DNA of 30,346 nucleotides, from the IMG/VR virus record IMGVR_UViG_3300001847_000873, positions 1-30,346 of that record. One strand, written 5' to 3'. The translations under genes and the position numbers were made by a program. The DNA comes from a virus. The notes beneath the pieces were generated by a model, which searched no databases, was not told the origin of the DNA, and worked only from the letters and a program-made list of their open reading frames with translations. Numbering within the stretch: position 1 is the stretch's first letter; every line of letters begins with the position of its first letter. Of the stretch, positions 50 to 10,901 are shown piece after piece.

Positions 50-658
50 ATGACCAGTTATCCAAAAACAGGCTCACCCTTAGTTGGTAAAGATGGAAAA
101 AATATTACCAGCGCCGCACTTTCAACCAACATTTTGATAAAGGTTGGGACGTTAGCGGTAGGCGCAATCCAGAGCATTAACGTTACCGAGCAAAGATCGG
201 TATCTCCAATAGCCGAGCTTGGAACTGACGGTATAATTGATTCTGCGCCACAATCCTCAACTAAAATTACCGGTGGTTGCAAGCGCATAAGGTTTGATAA
301 GAAAAGAATCGCTCAAGCTTTCGGTAGAGATTTTGTTCACGTTCAATCACAAAGAAAACCATTCGATATCGACATTATCGATACGTGGCTTGGCGAAGAA
401 GGGGACCGGTCCGTAATAACCACCATCAAGAACGTGTGGATTACCCAGATTAGCTACAACTACGCTTCCGATAACTGGATAATCAGTGACGATATGCAGT
501 GGCAGGCCGAAACCATATATACACATTATAGCGGAAATGCTGAAAGCCTATCCAGAAATACCGGCGACGCCATGGAATACTTGGCGGATAATGGCAAATA
601 CCGCGGCTCTATGACCACGATGGAAGGGGATGCTCTTATCGACATTCTCGGCCAATAA
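50..658 (+). CDS. Tail tube protein (T4 gp19-like)
   Basis: This 202-aa protein is the probable inner tail tube subunit, the beta-barrel protein that stacks in hexameric rings inside the contractile sheath. Residues about 27-70 (beginning NILIKVGTLAVGAIQSINVT and running to an IDSAP segment) have the look of the N-terminal part of myovirus tube proteins, where a bent strand pair is followed by a long inter-ring loop. Length fits the family (T4 gp19 is 163 aa). The start is supported by GGAG at 40-43, six bases before ATG. The gene stands alone between the window edge and a pair of terminator-like hairpins, which fits a structural protein needed in many copies. The sheath gene is presumably upstream, outside the window. 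The main alternative is a tube-like terminator or initiator protein, but position directly before chaperones and tape measure argues for the main tube. Confidence 0.9.
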   Translation: MTSYPKTGSPLVGKDGKNITSAALSTNILIKVGTLAVGAIQSINVTEQRSVSPIAELGTDGIIDSAPQSSTKITGGCKRIRFDKKRIAQAFGRDFVHVQSQRKPFDIDIIDTWLGEEGDRSVITTIKNVWITQISYNYASDNWIISDDMQWQAETIYTHYSGNAESLSRNTGDAMEYLADNGKYRGSMTTMEGDALIDILGQ

Positions 659-839: not shown

Positions 840-1580
840 ATGGTAAGCATTAAAAGTGACATAGCAAATAGGAATTTTAATCAAACTGGATTTAGAGAAT
901 ATGAGGTTCCAGATGAGACCGGTCACTCTCACGCCGTAACAACCGATATTCCAATAGAAGAAATAAACAAAAGCCTTATTTCTCGCGGACTTCCGCCAAT
1001 TGATGAAAAGTCATTCTCAGAGCATCAGGTAAAAAGCGCAAATCGAACCCAGCCAACCGTAAATAGGCAGTCCTCCCAGTCTTATTTTTCCTCCGAACCG
1101 GAAGAGGATATTGAAGAGGTTGAAAGAAAAATAGCGGCAGCAAAAAAGAGCAGATCTAACGGTAGCGGTAGACTTTCGGATGGCGCGAAAAAGAGAATCG
1201 AAATGCTTTGCGGCATTTCGAGAAATTTGAAGGAAGTTGAAATAGATGGAAATGTATTTGTGCTTCGTACCCTAAAAAGCAAAGAGCTTTTAGATGCCCT
1301 ATTGTCATCCGCTAAACTTGACGGTACAATTTCACTTCCATTCCAAACAAGAAAAGAATTGCTGGCAAGATCTTTGGTAAAGATTGCTGGAACGGATGTT
1401 TCTTTGTTTTTGGGAGATGACTCAATTCCTGCAAGAATTGAGTTTTTAGATGAGCTAGAAGAGCCCTTGCTTGAAAAGCTTTATAGAGAGTATACTTTAC
1501 TTGTAAATGACGTGAACGTTCGATATGGCCTAAGCGACTCCCAGGTAGCCAAGGAGGTTCCGGAAGACATAAAAAAATAG
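840..1580 (+). CDS. Tail assembly chaperone, short form (lambda G-like role)
   Basis: This 246-aa protein is the probable short tail assembly chaperone, which keeps the tape measure soluble during tail assembly and is not part of the finished tail. Residues 1-115 are polar and low-complexity (acidic EPEEDIEEVE, then basic KKSRSNGSGRL). Residues about 125-235 look like the folded chaperone domain: a short beta part (VEIDGNVFVLRTLKSKE) followed by helices (LPFQTRKELLARSLVKIAG, IEFLDELEEPLLEKLYREY). The start is supported by GAGGA at 828-832. It lies directly upstream of the tape measure, the diagnostic position for this family. It ends with A_AAA_AAA_TAG, from which a -1 shift joins it to the next reading frame to give a longer isoform of about 361 aa. 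Family assignment rests on position and architecture rather than on a strong motif. Confidence 0.78.
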   Translation: MVSIKSDIANRNFNQTGFREYEVPDETGHSHAVTTDIPIEEINKSLISRGLPPIDEKSFSEHQVKSANRTQPTVNRQSSQSYFSSEPEEDIEEVERKIAAAKKSRSNGSGRLSDGAKKRIEMLCGISRNLKEVEIDGNVFVLRTLKSKELLDALLSSAKLDGTISLPFQTRKELLARSLVKIAGTDVSLFLGDDSIPARIEFLDELEEPLLEKLYREYTLLVNDVNVRYGLSDSQVAKEVPEDIKK

Positions 1581-1630
1581 GAGAGGAGCCCGAGCATAGA
1601 TTCCTGTGGCACATGTGCAATATGCTTGGG
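1551..1630 (+). promoter_or_regulatory. Programmed -1 frameshift cassette (SD, slippery site, stem)
   Basis: Three elements occur in order. (1) AAGGAGG at 1551-1557, a full Shine-Dalgarno sequence inside the coding region with no start codon within initiation distance. (2) The heptamer A_AAA_AAA at 1571-1577, in the right phase (zero-frame codons AAA at 1572 and 1575) and followed directly by the TAG stop, 13 nt after the SD. (3) A 10-bp stem CCCGAGCATA/TATGCTTGGG (1589-1598 with 1621-1630, one G-U pair, 22-nt loop) starting 11 nt after the heptamer. The downstream frame is open from the slip point to 1924. This is the same layout as the E. coli dnaX and IS3-family frameshift signals. The stem spacing is longer than usual. 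Confidence 0.82.
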
Positions 1631-1924
1631 TGCTTGCCAGATGACGAAAAAATCGAATCCATGGATCCATTTGTAAAGGCCTGGTGTTTTAATAACTGGG
1701 TGCAAGATCAAAATGACAAGGTGGATTTGGCTAAAAATCACGCATATATAATAGGATCTTTCATTAATCCAGAAGCCGTTAAGAAGATTATCGGTGACGG
1801 AAACACGTATTCAACTACCGATGAAGAATTTGAGAAATCAACTAAAATGGTAATGGAAAGCAGTAAAGCAGAGGATTCTACAAAATCACAAAGAAGAAAG
1901 CGAAAGAGAAAATTAAAGAGCTAA
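1577..1924 (+). CDS. Tail assembly chaperone C-terminal extension (GT-like, by -1 frameshift)
   Basis: This frame is read as a fusion: 246 residues from the 840 gene, then from base 1577 onward IGEEPEHRFLWHM and so on to 1924, adding about 115 residues for a product near 361 aa. In lambda-like tails the extended GT isoform is the one that contacts the tape measure. The extension is mostly helical (FVKAWCFNNWVQDQ) and ends in a very basic tail (SQRRKRKRKLKS). An independent start at ATG 1613 (103 aa) is possible but poorly supported: the nearest purine-rich site (1582-1588) is 24 nt away and 1613 falls in the loop of the predicted stem. The full open frame up to the slippery site is itself evidence, since frame 2 has no stop between 1577 and 1613. 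The tape measure ATG follows 27 nt after the stop. Confidence 0.75.
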   Translation: MGEEPEHRFLWHMCNMLGCLPDDEKIESMDPFVKAWCFNNWVQDQNDKVDLAKNHAYIIGSFINPEAVKKIIGDGNTYSTTDEEFEKSTKMVMESSKAEDSTKSQRRKRKRKLKS

Positions 1925-1951: not shown

Positions 1952-4276
1952 ATGACTCAACAGCCACCGACTGGCATACCAGATCCAAAGGCAGCGGCAG
2001 ATGCGGTAGCAACAGCCACGGCAACTCCGCTAGAAATTCCGGATATATCCAGCTCGGCTTCAAAGTTCGTTTCAAACCTTGAAAACGCAGGATCTGCCGT
2101 ATCCGCATTTAAAGATGCGGCCATGTCTTTTGGAGAGGGTGCATTTAATTTTCTAAAGAACCTAGCTTCTTCTGGAAAAGACACGGCATCTGCTATTGAT
2201 ACTGCCACAAAAGCGGCGAGCGGACTGTCAACAACTCTATCAGTAATAGGTAGTGTTGTAGAAACGAACATTATTGGCGATCTTAGCGCCTCACTAAGCG
2301 AGGCCAACAAAAATACAATCCACCTATCTCAAAGCACAAACGATCTTTTTGATGTATTCAAGAAAGCGCCGCTCATAGGAGATTTTCTTACAAAAAACGA
2401 AATTGGTAAAAAATTTGTATCAGACACGCAGGCTGTTATGAAAAGCGCAGAAGATATACCAAAAATGAGGCAGTATCTTTTGCAATCAGCGGCTGCTGGC
2501 GGACAGCTAAACGAAATGCTCGGCGACATGTCAAACATAGACATCAGTAAGCTTAATGAGCAGGTAAAAAATAGCGCTCAAAACATGGTTATTTACGCCG
2601 GTACAATTGGTACGACTACAGAACAATATAGGAAACTATACACCGAGTTGCAGCAAGAAACGCCAAACTTTTTGACAAATCAAAAAGTAAAAGTTGGTGA
2701 TCAAGATTTGACAGAAACTCAGGCCGCGATGGTTTTGGCTGAAGGTACCGGAAGAAAAACGGATGATTTAAAAACTAAAATATCAGAGCTAGGCAAGACG
2801 TTCAACATGTCCGGTCAATCAACGCTTGAGTATATCGCTAAGCTTTCGCAGGCAAATGACGAATTTAAAGTTGGAGTTACAACAATAGATGCTTTTGCAA
2901 AGAAAAATATAGAGTCATTGACTTACTTATCCGACAAAGGAGACAATTCCATTCTAACGCTAAATAGGATGATGAAGGGGTTTCAAGACACTGGCCTCAG
3001 CGCAAAGCAGGCTGCTGAGCTTATTGGTGATATGACATCTGGAATTGCCAAAATGGATATGGCGGAAAAGGGATTCTTGTCATCTCAAACGGGCGGAGCT
3101 GGCGGATTGCGAGGAGCGTTCGAGATAGAAGGTCTTCTTCGGGAAGGAAAAACCGATGAGGTCATGAAAAAGATAGAAGAAAATATAAAGAAAAATTTTG
3201 GTGGAAAAATATTTTCTCTAAAAGACGCTCAAGAAAGCGACTATGGCGCATCTCAATTTATGATGCAGCGCGAGTTACTAAAAAGCGGATCGTTTGGAAT
3301 TAAGCCCCAAAATGACGCGCAGGCGACGAGAATTCTTGAGGCAATGTCAAATGGATTTAAGCCGGAAGCATCCGACATGGGCGAAGCATTTGATAAGTAC
3401 GCTGGCGCCGGGAAGACATTGATGGAATCAAACGTAACTTCATTTTCCACCGCAAATATGGTTCTTGAATTAGAAAAGTTTGAAAACGGCCTAAGAAATA
3501 CCAATTTGTATTTCGGTAAAATTGGGGCACTTTCTTCTGAAAATAGAAAGCTTGTAAATGAATTAAATACAGAAACCCAAGATAAATCTGGTAAAAAAAA
3601 TAGAACAGATAATAGAACCAAAGAAGTAATTGGTAAGTTGGGAAATGGCAACGATGCTCTGGGTGGGGTCATGAGCACCACAGACTCAGTAATTAAAGGC
3701 GTTGGTACTGCCGTAGATCTTCTTAAAAAGATTGGAAGTGCGTTTGGAGTTACGCTGGAAGATAACACTCAACAACAAGCTCAACCAAATCAACAAAATG
3801 CGCCACAAAATGCAGCAAAACCAGAACCGGCAAGGGGACCTAATCTTTCCGAGCGTGAAATTGATGATATTAACGCAAGAAGGTACGGAAATACCAGGAA
3901 TAATCGACCTCAAGATCAACCACGAGCATTGCCAATAACGCAAAATCAGCCCGCCACAGCACCAAGGCAAAATCAACCGGCTACCGCACAAATACAAACA
4001 ACAAACCTTCCAAAAACGCCAGCGCAAGCATCAAGAGAAACCGCGCTGGCCATGATTGACAATTATCCAAAAACACTGGAAGTAAATGTAAACCAAGGAT
4101 CGAGTAATAACCAAACGGCGACGCTCGACGGTAAGGTCGTTGTTCCAACCGTCGAGATGCATGTAGACATGACCTGCAAGACTTGCAACGGCAAGACAAC
4201 AGAAGTTGTGGTATTGAAATCTAAGCAAAATGAAATAGGCGGAGTTACCACCGTTCCCGTTTCAAGGCCAGCCTAG
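1952..4276 (+). CDS. Tail tape measure protein
   Basis: This 774-aa protein is the likely tape measure, the extended helical protein that sets tail length and is ejected ahead of DNA. It directly follows the chaperone pair. The body is rich in Ala, Ser, Gly, Lys and helix-forming stretches. At roughly 1.5 angstrom per residue it would give a tail near 115 nm. Residues about 605-700 form a Q/N/P/A-rich linker with a 9-residue repeat (QNQPATA twice). The last 75 residues look like a small folded unit with beta-type sequence and a CxxC pair (C742, C745 in MTCKTCNGKT), suggestive of metal binding. No clear membrane-spanning segment is seen, unlike many tape measures. AGGG at 1941-1944 supports the start. 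Identity rests on position, length and composition, and homology searches often fail for this family. Confidence 0.85.
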   Translation: MTQQPPTGIPDPKAAADAVATATATPLEIPDISSSASKFVSNLENAGSAVSAFKDAAMSFGEGAFNFLKNLASSGKDTASAIDTATKAASGLSTTLSVIGSVVETNIIGDLSASLSEANKNTIHLSQSTNDLFDVFKKAPLIGDFLTKNEIGKKFVSDTQAVMKSAEDIPKMRQYLLQSAAAGGQLNEMLGDMSNIDISKLNEQVKNSAQNMVIYAGTIGTTTEQYRKLYTELQQETPNFLTNQKVKVGDQDLTETQAAMVLAEGTGRKTDDLKTKISELGKTFNMSGQSTLEYIAKLSQANDEFKVGVTTIDAFAKKNIESLTYLSDKGDNSILTLNRMMKGFQDTGLSAKQAAELIGDMTSGIAKMDMAEKGFLSSQTGGAGGLRGAFEIEGLLREGKTDEVMKKIEENIKKNFGGKIFSLKDAQESDYGASQFMMQRELLKSGSFGIKPQNDAQATRILEAMSNGFKPEASDMGEAFDKYAGAGKTLMESNVTSFSTANMVLELEKFENGLRNTNLYFGKIGALSSENRKLVNELNTETQDKSGKKNRTDNRTKEVIGKLGNGNDALGGVMSTTDSVIKGVGTAVDLLKKIGSAFGVTLEDNTQQQAQPNQQNAPQNAAKPEPARGPNLSEREIDDINARRYGNTRNNRPQDQPRALPITQNQPATAPRQNQPATAQIQTTNLPKTPAQASRETALAMIDNYPKTLEVNVNQGSSNNQTATLDGKVVVPTVEMHVDMTCKTCNGKTTEVVVLKSKQNEIGGVTTVPVSRPA

Positions 4277-4333: not shown

Positions 4334-5155
4334 ATGGCGGATAATTTAGAAAAATTTTCAGATGGACTAACGTCGTTTATCAATAGCGGATTTCCATCTA
4401 ATTCGAGCCAGCAGGCAAAAGACTACCAAAAAGATGGATTTATAGTCGCCTCTACTCCAAGTGCAGACGGAAATGGGTTACCATCATTTAACCTAAGTAA
4501 AAAGCAACATAGAAAAGGCGAGAAAAAAAGAAATTTAATACATTGGTTTGTGCCTGAGTTTGGCGTCGTTAAAATGTATGTAAACCCCAACTCACTATCG
4601 TATGATTACAGAAAGTCAATTACCCCAGAAAGAACAAAAAACGGATTTAATTTTCAGTATTGGGGGGAAGAGCTTCCAACAATAACTCTTGGCGGAACAA
4701 CCGGCAGCTCTGGGGTTGAGGGTATAAATGTTTTATACGAGGTTTATAGAGCAGAGCAATATGCCTTTGATGGTATAGGTCTAACTCTAGCGTCAGAAAA
4801 TTACATAAAAAACCAATCTGGAAATCTAACATCAATGATTGAAAATGAAATTGCATCCACTATTATAGATGGTGCTTTGGGCGTCAACAATTCATTCAAT
4901 ACCTTGTCGTCTAGAAAAATACCCACAATGGCAGAATTCGCTTTTGGCGTTGAGATGTTTTATCAGGGCTGGGTTCATCGCGGGTATTTTACCTCAATGA
5001 GGATTACCGAAAAAGAGGTAGGTATGTTTGACTACAGCCTATCATTTGTGTCAATTGAAAGGCGCGGATATAGACTTAATAACATGGCTTGGCAAAGAGA
5101 CCCAACATCTGGATATAGTGACAGCAGCTTAAATAATAGATCCTATGGTGAATAG
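4334..5155 (+). CDS. Tail tube/baseplate adaptor candidate (structural)
   Basis: This 273-aa protein lies between tape measure and hub, where many myoviruses encode the protein linking tube to baseplate hub (T4 gp48/gp54, or LysM-type gp53/XkdP/Pvc7-like proteins). Residues about 70-145 carry a pattern familiar from such proteins: KMYVNPNSLSYDYRKSITPE, then a FQYWGEELPTITLGGTTGSSG segment split by short turns. This resembles the beta domain that docks on the tube. The C-terminal part (FAFGVEMFYQGWVHRGYFTSM, then DYSLSFVSIERRGYR) is also beta-type. I see no obvious LysM repeat. The ATG at 4334 has only a weak purine site (GAG, 4323-4325). The exact role is inferred from position and pattern, so it could equally be a tube initiator. 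Confidence 0.6.
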   Translation: MADNLEKFSDGLTSFINSGFPSNSSQQAKDYQKDGFIVASTPSADGNGLPSFNLSKKQHRKGEKKRNLIHWFVPEFGVVKMYVNPNSLSYDYRKSITPERTKNGFNFQYWGEELPTITLGGTTGSSGVEGINVLYEVYRAEQYAFDGIGLTLASENYIKNQSGNLTSMIENEIASTIIDGALGVNNSFNTLSSRKIPTMAEFAFGVEMFYQGWVHRGYFTSMRITEKEVGMFDYSLSFVSIERRGYRLNNMAWQRDPTSGYSDSSLNNRSYGE

Positions 5156-8700: not shown

Positions 8701-10901
8701 TATTCAACGCAAAGAATAGAAAACTAGAGCTGTTTAATAGCGAATACTCGTCTGTAAAAGACAAGATAGAAAAGCTTTCTTCTTTTTTGGATCTAGAGAT
8801 ATTCTGTGACACGCAGGGTCATATTCGTGCCAGATCTCCACAGTACAATAAGATGCCAAGCAGCGTGTTTTTCAAGCTTATTAAAATGAAAAACGAGTAC
8901 GGAACGCGTCTTTATCCGGCTTTCCTAGAAAACCTAATATCCGATCAGCTTCATTTGGCTTTGCAGGACATAGCCCTTATTGAGGATAAGATTCGCCTTC
9001 ATTGCGCCGCACTCGGAAAAAACAGTGATGCAGACGTCAATAAATTTATTTCTTCATCAGGCGACCTCAGCTCAAATTCATCAAAATATTTTTACCTAAT
9101 TTCCAATGAATCCGGCGAAATAGACGATTTGAGAGGGATAAAAAACGATTCAATTGAGGTTACTGAATCTGAAAGAAATTTTAAAAATACACTTGATGGG
9201 CAGTTAAAAATAAGAAACATTTTCGTTTTAACTTTCGATTTATATAGCTCCGCCCAAAATACAAGGTCCACTCAAAACAGAGACCTCGCCTCATTGTATA
9301 GCGAGCCCGGCGGAAGAGTAGAAAAAATTGTAAACCGAATACTTAGGAAATACGGTGAAAAAATCACCTCGAAGGATTTTGTCTCGGCTAATGGAACATC
9401 TACTCCAACTAAAGACGGAAACCTCACGTCCGTAGATATGTATAAGGTTTACAAGAATATTTCGGGAAAATTGCTTGAGCGGCAAAATCTGATAAAAAAG
9501 GCAGCCTCTCTCCTAAAAAATGCAATTGAAATAAAAGACGTCGAGTCAAATAAAGGTGTGCAAAACGCACTATTGATGCCTGAGTATTTTGATTACCAGA
9601 ATATTCCTGACATATTTGAGAACCTAATAGAAGATGAGAGTTTTGATGAATTTGGCCCAGGCTCCGGCTCAAGATTTGTCATAAAAGACTCACAGATAAA
9701 ATCATTAACAATACGAGAAACGCCACCTAACTTTACTTCCGTTGCCGTTATTGGAAGCCAAGACATCTTGCTTCAAGATGGTCCGCAAGGATTAAATGCG
9801 AGTTTTAACGGTCAAAACTTAAATTTTCAAAACTCAGCGGTTGCAGTAGATTATGATATGTGGAGAATGTATGGCTTCAAGTCAACGCAAGCCTTTAATG
9901 CTCCATTTTTGAAAGATCCGGACTCTCAATGCGCTCCGATGGCAGTGTCCATATTAAATAAGGCCAGAAGCGAAATATTTACTGGCGAAGTTTCGATTAT
10001 TGGAAACGAGTATATGCAGCCGGGAGACGTTGTTTATTTGGAAGGAAGAGATCTGCTTTTCTATGTTCAATCGGTAGACCATTCGTTTGGATACAATTCA
10101 AAATCATTTAACACAAACCTACGCCTAACTTATGGTAGACCGCCGGGAGAGTACATTCCAACAAAAATGGATATGATAGGAAAGATTCTTTTCAGAAATA
10201 GAGAGTCCGGATCCGTCGTATTGCACAGGCATTCAAATTCTTACGGCGAAAAACCGTTAGGCGCGATTTTCATAGATCGCTACGCCATGAGCAAATTGAA
10301 AGACATCAATAAACAGATTAAAGAGATAAATAGTAAAGGTAATAGATCGGGCACTTCAGTAAAAGACGATCAGGGCTCATTAGAAGATCAGAAAAAAAAC
10401 CACATATACGAGGCTCTTTTTGAGGGCGGGTACGGCAACACAAATGAAAAAGTTATAAATCAAATTATAAACGAAATAAGCGTATCTACCCTTCAAAATC
10501 AAGACGAAAATACAATTGTAAAATTCAGTATTGTGGCAAGAATATACCGGCTAAATGAAAGTCAGGATCAAAATGAACTCATAACATCAGCTGCCCTAGT
10601 CAACGATATTATAAAGGGAGGAAATGTTCCGAGTAAATATGCAAATAAGGTGCCAAGCGTATCTTATGGATCGGCTGAAACAGACGGAAAACTAGAAACA
10701 AATAGGCAGCAAATTAACTTAAAAAATCCAAACGAAACCAGATCCCCATCGAAATATTGTATGGATTTGGTTCAAAAGCTCATGCAAGAAGGCATGTCTC
10801 CAACAACCGACGAAGCCAATATCCAGGCGGATACGGAAGCCGTATTAATATCTAATTATATTTTAGACTTTTTCTTAGTTAAAAGTTATGAAAAAAAATA
10901 G
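5796..10901 (+). CDS. Very large baseplate central hub protein (gp27/gpD-like)
   Basis: The hub connects tube and spike at the centre of the baseplate. T4 gp27 has 391 aa; this protein has about 1,701. Hub-type signatures lie far apart: residues about 455-605 (VHIYISSKSKED, GVHVFGGVINSATS, YELNCSASSMAEYFNQGRF) and about 1,390-1,460 (GEVSIIGNEYMQPGDVVYLE, FYVQSVDHSFGYNSKSFNTN, LRLTYGRPPGEYIP), the classic late-control-D end. A further conserved-looking block is at 995-1,025 (FCDTQGHIRARSPQYNKMPS). Residues about 808-882 are predicted coiled coil. The first 450 and last 240 residues are unassigned. No lysozyme or peptidase motif is seen. The start is uncertain: GTG 5778 and ATG 5781 are in frame and closer to the SD at 5759-5765, while ATG 5796 gives a natural N-terminus (MSNDFLDSLASILED). 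The gene ends GAA AAA AAA TAG, a second A_AAA_AAA site. Confidence 0.85.
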   Translation: MSNDFLDSLASILEDQFSIGENKVHTLDSSTASGNGAVRYGALGEFSSKFDKSQERRYFEQGYLRTDSFNAVPRQAEVYFQEPSATVLVKKRAFSSLAENFQEENLDKEERIFIKATKVLFQNKTIQISAYENLCKAKNVLEKNPNYAQQLMPLIMAMVERMSNSGIDSESPGISLNLKQKSDATNSFKRIKSVTDKIKTLYAFSSQSTYTTWITDSTNPWKSTFGQGTGVIELTNVKSFNAKTSVSLGEGQCGLHFSDPYNLMTITSYDIERAISDATNVAYNSSTFQFGKDNLKIAINDLKTQLDNRRLARGASKIQFIVNANTVLGKRVRAVIDGAGIEIPFTYTFSDDYKFDNSVDVPQDYMINGDITGSQGLDNRKKAIRTITSGYGGVALDPYSKKTLNSEPGVSYKSWFESSEFTLFRDIITKTFDLLTLEENAKQNIKKSNQDTNYVRKKMRLHYLGKSIIQPMDQVHIYISSKSKEDRKIVGGMRSSMAGLSFKQGLNSTFANFNTIKASLKPSSDVYAQIEKSAFVGDDFPTWLWPFFRDAFTNDNDGVHVFGGVINSATSSYSSGVYELNCSASSMAEYFNQGRFNWKPSVNVFNGELLDPLTIYKTRSDSVSYDSVDQTRELLEENQKIVNSGLIRYSSGDNLGSVVTKGNLVADQEIGALGQRKSIVYEPDGLVHRWKEGIGTLTQHSMYSGNSRTGYQPSFYEEPFAGQDIMNIISILVTGVPYNFVTYFKSALKVGTERVDPQKLKVSIQSQMSSLRSGISKNNMIWGNFVPFKNLVVNDAEIIRTINAQSSLSKKSSEISAALDKIAKAQNIINKMTFEKDKLSPATANGTGAASDIYDKEIKAQRALIEAQNKNLNNLHDEFYRTFPQEMKNIVVIGDDVSYDTYGIYSSGYERQLSQSKSQAALNSDNTRKKVRKKINFLTRRFARDVRANQDKNLFIVDDNYDKDYDIWVFNAKNRKLELFNSEYSSVKDKIEKLSSFLDLEIFCDTQGHIRARSPQYNKMPSSVFFKLIKMKNEYGTRLYPAFLENLISDQLHLALQDIALIEDKIRLHCAALGKNSDADVNKFISSSGDLSSNSSKYFYLISNESGEIDDLRGIKNDSIEVTESERNFKNTLDGQLKIRNIFVLTFDLYSSAQNTRSTQNRDLASLYSEPGGRVEKIVNRILRKYGEKITSKDFVSANGTSTPTKDGNLTSVDMYKVYKNISGKLLERQNLIKKAASLLKNAIEIKDVESNKGVQNALLMPEYFDYQNIPDIFENLIEDESFDEFGPGSGSRFVIKDSQIKSLTIRETPPNFTSVAVIGSQDILLQDGPQGLNASFNGQNLNFQNSAVAVDYDMWRMYGFKSTQAFNAPFLKDPDSQCAPMAVSILNKARSEIFTGEVSIIGNEYMQPGDVVYLEGRDLLFYVQSVDHSFGYNSKSFNTNLRLTYGRPPGEYIPTKMDMIGKILFRNRESGSVVLHRHSNSYGEKPLGAIFIDRYAMSKLKDINKQIKEINSKGNRSGTSVKDDQGSLEDQKKNHIYEALFEGGYGNTNEKVINQIINEISVSTLQNQDENTIVKFSIVARIYRLNESQDQNELITSAALVNDIIKGGNVPSKYANKVPSVSYGSAETDGKLETNRQQINLKNPNETRSPSKYCMDLVQKLMQEGMSPTTDEANIQADTEAVLISNYILDFFLVKSYEKK

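Follow-up and report, generated by a model that had tools for sequence, protein, structure and literature searches.

The beginning of this viral contig, where two overlapping reading frames lie between genes for tail proteins, raises the question of whether the two frames are joined into one protein by programmed ribosomal frameshifting, and which elements in the nucleotide sequence would support such a shift. The original prediction described a dnaX-like cassette of three parts, a Shine-Dalgarno (SD)-like element, a slippery heptamer and a downstream stem, joining two tail assembly chaperone frames. The DNA analyzed here, referred to as the window, is the full 30,346-nt IMG/VR record IMGVR_UViG_3300001847_000873, with positions numbered from its first letter. 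The following features were considered, and the predicted coordinates of the SD-like element, the heptamer, the stem arms and the end of the second frame (1924) all agreed with the sequence.

50..658, plus strand: tail tube-like protein (PHROG 985, E 3e-5)
840..1580, plus strand: zero-frame tail assembly chaperone (G-like), 246 aa, ending in EDIKK and a stop (open reading frame and fold match)
1551..1557, plus strand: putative internal SD-like stimulator AAGGAGG, 13 nt before the heptamer (synonymous-codon selection)
1571..1577, plus strand: slippery heptamer A_AAA_AAA in zero-frame phase (sequence and relatives)
1578..1580, plus strand: zero-frame stop TAG right after the heptamer (sequence)
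1577..1924, plus strand: −1-frame extension (the T-like part of GT), 115 aa past the shift (conservation in relatives)
1584..1635, plus strand: predicted hairpin pairing 1584-1586 with 1633-1635 and 1588-1598 with 1621-1631 (11 bp, two G-U; folding)
1613..1615, plus strand: in-frame ATG, assessed as a separate start for the −1 frame and discarded (conserved KK..EPEHRFLW upstream)
1952..4276, plus strand: probable tape measure protein, 774 aa (from position and size)
4334..5155, plus strand: tail tube initiator-like protein (PF23980, E 0.0015, which is below the curated cut-off; PHROG 1011)

All convincing genes of the contig lie on the plus strand, in the order tube-like protein, chaperone pair, probable tape measure, tube-initiator-like protein and baseplate genes, the last including a Baseplate_J domain and a sheath initiator-like protein. 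The named relatives were remote: Bacillus phage G gp180, with 26% identity over 63% of the tube-like protein, and gp188, with 30% identity. The tail module of the contig is distantly related to that of Bacillus phage G. A family search with the probable tape measure gave no match, and in phage G the tape measure gene also follows the chaperones, the same position as that of the 1952-4276 frame. A scan of the whole contig for tRNA genes and Rfam families found none.

The two frames between the tube protein and the position-inferred tape measure overlap in the layout of the lambda G/GT type. The −1 frame stays open until TAA at 1922-1924, and the fusion computed from the two parts (246 + 115 = 361 aa) has the length of about 361 aa that had been anticipated. 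An AlphaFold model of the zero-frame protein (mean pLDDT 84) matched Gp181/Gp182 of phage G in Foldseek (E 5e-7), with other annotated tail assembly chaperones as weaker fold matches, and the model of the extension gave a weak fold match to phage G Gp182 (E 0.01). A PHROG search with the contig's own two chaperone proteins matched no chaperone family, and a minority of the relatives described below matched PHROG tail assembly chaperone families, for each half of the pair. Among solved structures, no relatives were found by sequence and none by fold at E below 0.001. The pair is thus linked to known chaperones through the fold of phage G Gp181/182 and the PHROG matches of its relatives.

Direct searches with the chaperone and tape measure proteins in the phages and viral_contigs sets returned no relatives. 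Relatives were instead reached through the tube initiator (4334-5155) and fetched without regard to the shift site, which leaves these loci unbiased in that respect, and further relatives were reached through a profile of the −1-frame extension, whose HMM matched 124 loci. The extension-based search pattern starts with KK and could favour heptamer-like sites; the two sets agreed. A search of named phages with the extension of a relative found nothing, and the initiator profile had no match in genome_contigs. The non-redundant homologous junctions numbered 82, of which 76 were of the −1 type and six of the +1 type; 67 of the 76 formed the group resembling the junction of this contig and are referred to as window-type. 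The extension was conserved from the first codons past the heptamer, with identities of 56% to relative L003, 48% to L005 and 23% to L006. Local gene content varied at some of these loci. L003 and L004 carry an extra frame of about 350 aa (L003:1518-2567) between the tube gene and the chaperone pair, which by eye only is homing-endonuclease-like. In L002 (1939-3562), the tube and initiator proteins are the closest to those of the contig (81% and 79% identity) but are separated by only about 190 nt, with no chaperone pair and no tape measure between them and a terminase-like frame next on the opposite strand; this arrangement reflects either a rearrangement or a misassembly.

The heptamer lies in the context ATA AAA AAA TAG, its first A being the third base of a codon. 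An in-phase heptamer was present in all 76 −1-type junctions, comprising A_AAA_AAA in 69, A_AAA_AAC in six and A_AAA_AAT in one, and the zero-frame stop of the relatives came directly after it or one codon further on. The most conserved block of the extension, KK..EPxHR..W, runs across the change of frame, starting at the heptamer and upstream of ATG 1613. In addition, 41 of the 67 window-type junctions have the extension frame closed just one to three codons ahead of the heptamer, which pins the slip site. Thus, the predicted −1 frameshift joining the two chaperone frames was strongly supported, with an in-phase −1 heptamer at 76 of 82 junctions, and the phase that the prediction expected to see conserved was kept in every one of the 76. 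We rejected readthrough of the TAG, since the zero frame meets its next stop, TAA, at 1674-1676 and TAA follows the heptamer in most relatives. Taken singly, neither AAGGAGG nor A7 is remarkable by chance: AAGGAGG occurs three times on both strands against 2.7 expected, the copy at 1551-1557 being the only one on the plus strand, and A7 is under-represented in the contig and occurs in phase at seven other places, none of which has an SD-like element in the 22 nt upstream. Their conservation across the relatives, in phase for the heptamer and in sequence for the SD, cannot be due to chance. As a separate observation, a gene of 1,707 aa in the contig likewise ends in an A8 run in slippery phase (10891-10901) with TAG immediately after it.

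Evidence on the SD-like element came from codon choice. K-E-V is encoded at the SD site in most relatives, and the resemblance to an SD could be a by-product of that conserved peptide. In the window-type junctions, the codon completing AGGAG specified Glu in 62 of 67, and this Glu was GAG in 52 of the 62 (84%), compared with 31% of Glu codons elsewhere in the same genes (p = 7e-18; relatives were treated as independent in the SD statistics, and the end branches are long, with a median of 0.55 changes per column). The ratio of GAG to other codons was 44:7 at the SD Glu-Val and 16:59 (21% GAG) at the other E-V dipeptides of the same genes (p = 2e-13), so that the GAG excess was not seen when sought at other Glu-Val sites, and the Lys preceding the SD Glu was AAG in 31 of 50 (62%) against a background of 31%. 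A mere by-product of the peptide is therefore extremely improbable. The anti-SD energy averaged over the 67 junctions showed a single sharp minimum of −8.1 kcal/mol at the SD, compared with −2.0 to +1.6 kcal/mol in non-overlapping windows over the 150 nt upstream. In 42 of the 67, the end of the SD core and the heptamer were 13 nt apart, and in 12 more the distance was 14 or 15 nt; the published distance for −1 stimulation is 9-14 nt, and the 13 nt of the contig falls inside it (PMC5009743). These results strongly supported the proposal that the SD-like element acts as a stimulator and is under selection at the nucleotide level in this role.

The same data bear on two other ways in which the second frame could be expressed. 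It could be translated separately from ATG 1613, which is in frame and has an SD-like element upstream that might serve as its ribosome binding site. However, this ATG comes 55 nt after the end of 1551-1557 and also after the conserved KK..EPEHRFLW. In all relatives, the extension frame is free of ATG, GTG and TTG at the heptamer and within 9 nt of it, and in 50 of 76 it is free of them within 45 nt. The conserved residues and the lack of a start codon near the heptamer exclude independent initiation as far as comparison allows, in line with the earlier remark that the frame has no good start of its own, and we give two separate proteins a next to negligible probability. A fusion could also arise if RNA polymerase, rather than the ribosome, slipped on the A7 run, since poly-A runs can slip during transcription (PMC3711429). 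Against this, the run has exactly seven residues in codon phase at 69 junctions and is replaced by A6C or A6T at seven others, phage G also having A6C, and a selected SD at a ribosome-specific distance would have no role in transcription; we regard polymerase slippage as very unlikely. Ribosomal −1 frameshifting is the reading retained below, with comparison among relatives supporting that the fused protein is under selection, that the heptamer phase is conserved and that the SD is conserved at the nucleotide level.

The support for the stem was more divided. The arms noted originally (1589-1598 and 1621-1630) do pair, with one G-U, and folding extends the helix to 11 bp, giving a hairpin of −19.6 kcal/mol over 1584-1635 that starts 6-10 nt past the heptamer. 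This hairpin was weakly distinguished from dinucleotide shuffles (z −1.15) and more clearly from synonymous-codon shuffles (z −2.4 to −3.2, p 0.002-0.024 in fold windows spanning the hairpin), in about 1% of which 11-bp helices arise; a p of about 0.01 for a single stem of a single contig, out of 67 sequences and with several fold windows tried, is weak alone. The fold of 1540-1700, which includes the flanks, was not unusually stable (z −0.14). Across the 67 junctions, the region just after the heptamer was more structured (mean z −1.0 to −1.4) than the remainder of the gene (−0.2 to −0.45) under synonymous recoding, but helices vary among the relatives, some of which have other stems or none, and RNAalifold on the 67 window-type sequences found no consensus structure and no sharing of the contig's helix. 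The eight SD-poor window-type members averaged stronger stems, with p between 0.004 and 0.11 according to the fold window, a hint that SD and stem are interchangeable among window-type members; on independent tree pairs, this trade-off was not significant, and the result varied with the fold window. It is conceivable, though in our judgment somewhat doubtful, that the heptamer and SD suffice and that the hairpin is incidental in this contig, as the absence of a conserved helix and the many relatives with a stem z near 0 alongside a strong SD would suggest. The synonymous-codon result, the family-wide excess of structure right after the heptamer and, with the reservation given above, the stems of the SD-poor members speak against an incidental hairpin. 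Thus, a present and non-random hairpin as a third element of this contig is moderately supported by its sequence, and of the three elements proposed for comparison among related phages, the heptamer phase and the SD were conserved, but the stem helix of the contig was not.

Taken together, we propose that the window very probably derives from a phage-G-like contractile-tailed phage that produces its chaperone pair via programmed −1 frameshifting favoured by the SD, with the hairpin probably adding resistance and the fusion as the minority product. The majority of ribosomes would stop at TAG 1578 and release the 246-aa chaperone. While AAA AAA is being decoded, the SD 13 nt upstream would pair with the 3′ end of 16S rRNA and favour backward slippage, as work on dnaX suggests, and the hairpin 6-10 nt downstream would probably add resistance, which is the weakest step. 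Both tRNA-Lys would then slip from A_AAA_AAA into the −1 frame, giving a minority of 361-aa fusion protein, whose extra domain presumably brings tube subunits and tape measure together, as lambda gpGT does. By analogy with these systems, we infer that the SD acts by pairing with 16S rRNA, that the shifted product is the minority and that the extension has this role. In Escherichia coli, A_AAA_AAG shifts far more readily than A_AAA_AAA (PMC5009743); published frameshifting rates are 10% for one A7 cassette and 6-7% for two HK97-like chaperone cassettes (PMC3711429). Thus, the role of the SD may be to make up for a modest heptamer, and not to drive a high rate.

Bacillus phage G is among the closest known systems. 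Its gp181/gp182 also lie between tube and tape measure, and A_AAA_AAC directly before TAG with a −1 extension starting KKLA gives the same junction layout; however, phage G has A6C with a weak AAAGGA upstream (−5.3 kcal/mol) and falls in an SD-poor branch, whereas the contig has A7 and a strong SD. It was the frameshift of the phage G pair that led to its annotation as chaperones, which previous proteomic work on this phage had not detected (PMC8570332). Phage lambda G/GT likewise places a pair of overlapping frames, linked by a −1 shift, ahead of the tape measure, a likeness of layout and product logic; lambda uses GGGAAAG, and its corresponding place lacks an SD-like element (−2.5 kcal/mol), whereas the contig has both A7 and SD. 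With dnaX of E. coli, the contig shares the order and spacing class of SD, A-rich heptamer, nearby stop and downstream stem. Frameshifting in dnaX yields a shorter protein. In the contig, by contrast, the shift lengthens a tail chaperone, as in lambda G/GT and IS3, and does not shorten a DNA polymerase subunit; the heptamer is A_AAA_AAA and not A_AAA_AAG, and the stem, a candidate counterpart of the stimulatory stem-loop of the dnaX-type cassette, is not a conserved helix. The description as dnaX-like therefore applies to the layout, and neither to the heptamer nor to the product. IS3-family elements (IS911-type) also combine SD, A-run heptamer and structure for a −1 shift to an extended fusion, but their genes encode OrfA/OrfAB transposase, whereas the pair here belongs to virion assembly in a neighbourhood of tail genes, and protein family searches of the contig gave no transposase match. 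SDs have been estimated in 56% of IS elements (PMC5009743). The chaperone gene of Eggerthella phage LE2-3 (L165:1969-2705) has A_AAA_AAA-TAA with a GAGG ending 13 nt upstream, a likeness of site layout; no frameshift is annotated in this gene, which likely carries one. On the sequences compared, the site of the contig is of the lambda G/GT type with an added conserved SD as putative stimulator.

Two branches of the family depart from the window-type junction. The members are given below.

L006, L131, L132, L133, L134, L135, L137, L138, L139: phage-G-like branch members, mostly without SD
L142, L143, L146, L147, L148, L149, L150, L151, L153, near 1990-2010: +1-branch junctions

The phage-G-like branch comprised 10 rows in the tree including phage G (support 99), with the SD mostly missing and A6C, A7 or A6T as heptamers. 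Its nine metagenomic members have in common a 6-bp GGAGCC/GGCUCC stem 7 nt past the heptamer, with a consensus energy of −11.3 kcal/mol and a mean z of −3.8.

In the other branch, the extension is encoded in +1 with respect to the chaperone frame. Nine such junctions were found, six in the first set and three from a dedicated scan, and the six first-set rows grouped together in the tree (SH-aLRT 85), nested among −1 users. AAA AGT is invariant in this branch and the preceding codon varies (TCC, AGA, CGG, ACC, AAT). A −2 shift was rejected, as tRNA-Lys re-pairs in every member only with +1 on AAA_A. The SD Glu codon stands seven codons ahead of the last AAA, a register identical to that of the −1 members; Glu is absent in two of nine and is GAG in all seven where present, against a GAG background of 44% (p = 0.003). 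In members with a strong SD, the core lies 17 nt from AAA and the next codon is AGT, whereas the prfB-type +1 shift has its SD 3 nt upstream and a stop in the A site, so that this branch does not belong to the prfB type and its spacing greatly exceeds the 3 nt reported for +1 shifts stimulated by an SD (PMC5009743). We consider it reasonably likely that the direction of frameshifting flipped within one homologous chaperone family, to +1 at AAA_AGU, with the SD register kept in most members. If true, a distant SD can support +1 shifting, or the SD is a direction-neutral pause resolved by the codons of the shift site, the latter being one explanation for the retained SD and not a settled one.

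Prior examples exist of frameshifting in chaperones, of −1 shifts stimulated by an SD and of +1 shifts in chaperones, the last in HSTV-2 (PMC5009743), and PRFect was trained on phage frameshifts of both directions (PMC10885494). The open-access papers searched reported neither a family-wide conserved SD in tail chaperones nor a switch of direction inside one chaperone family. Frameshifting in tail chaperones is widespread, and accounts of it usually centre on the slippery site; in the 67 diverged members of this family, selection keeps a stimulator predicted to pair with 16S rRNA at a fixed distance. Related sites are testable in two named phages whose hosts are on record, Bacillus phage G and Eggerthella phage LE2-3. 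Together, the family with the SD, the sister branch with a conserved stem instead and the branch of opposite direction would provide a natural mutagenesis series for the rate and direction of frameshifting.
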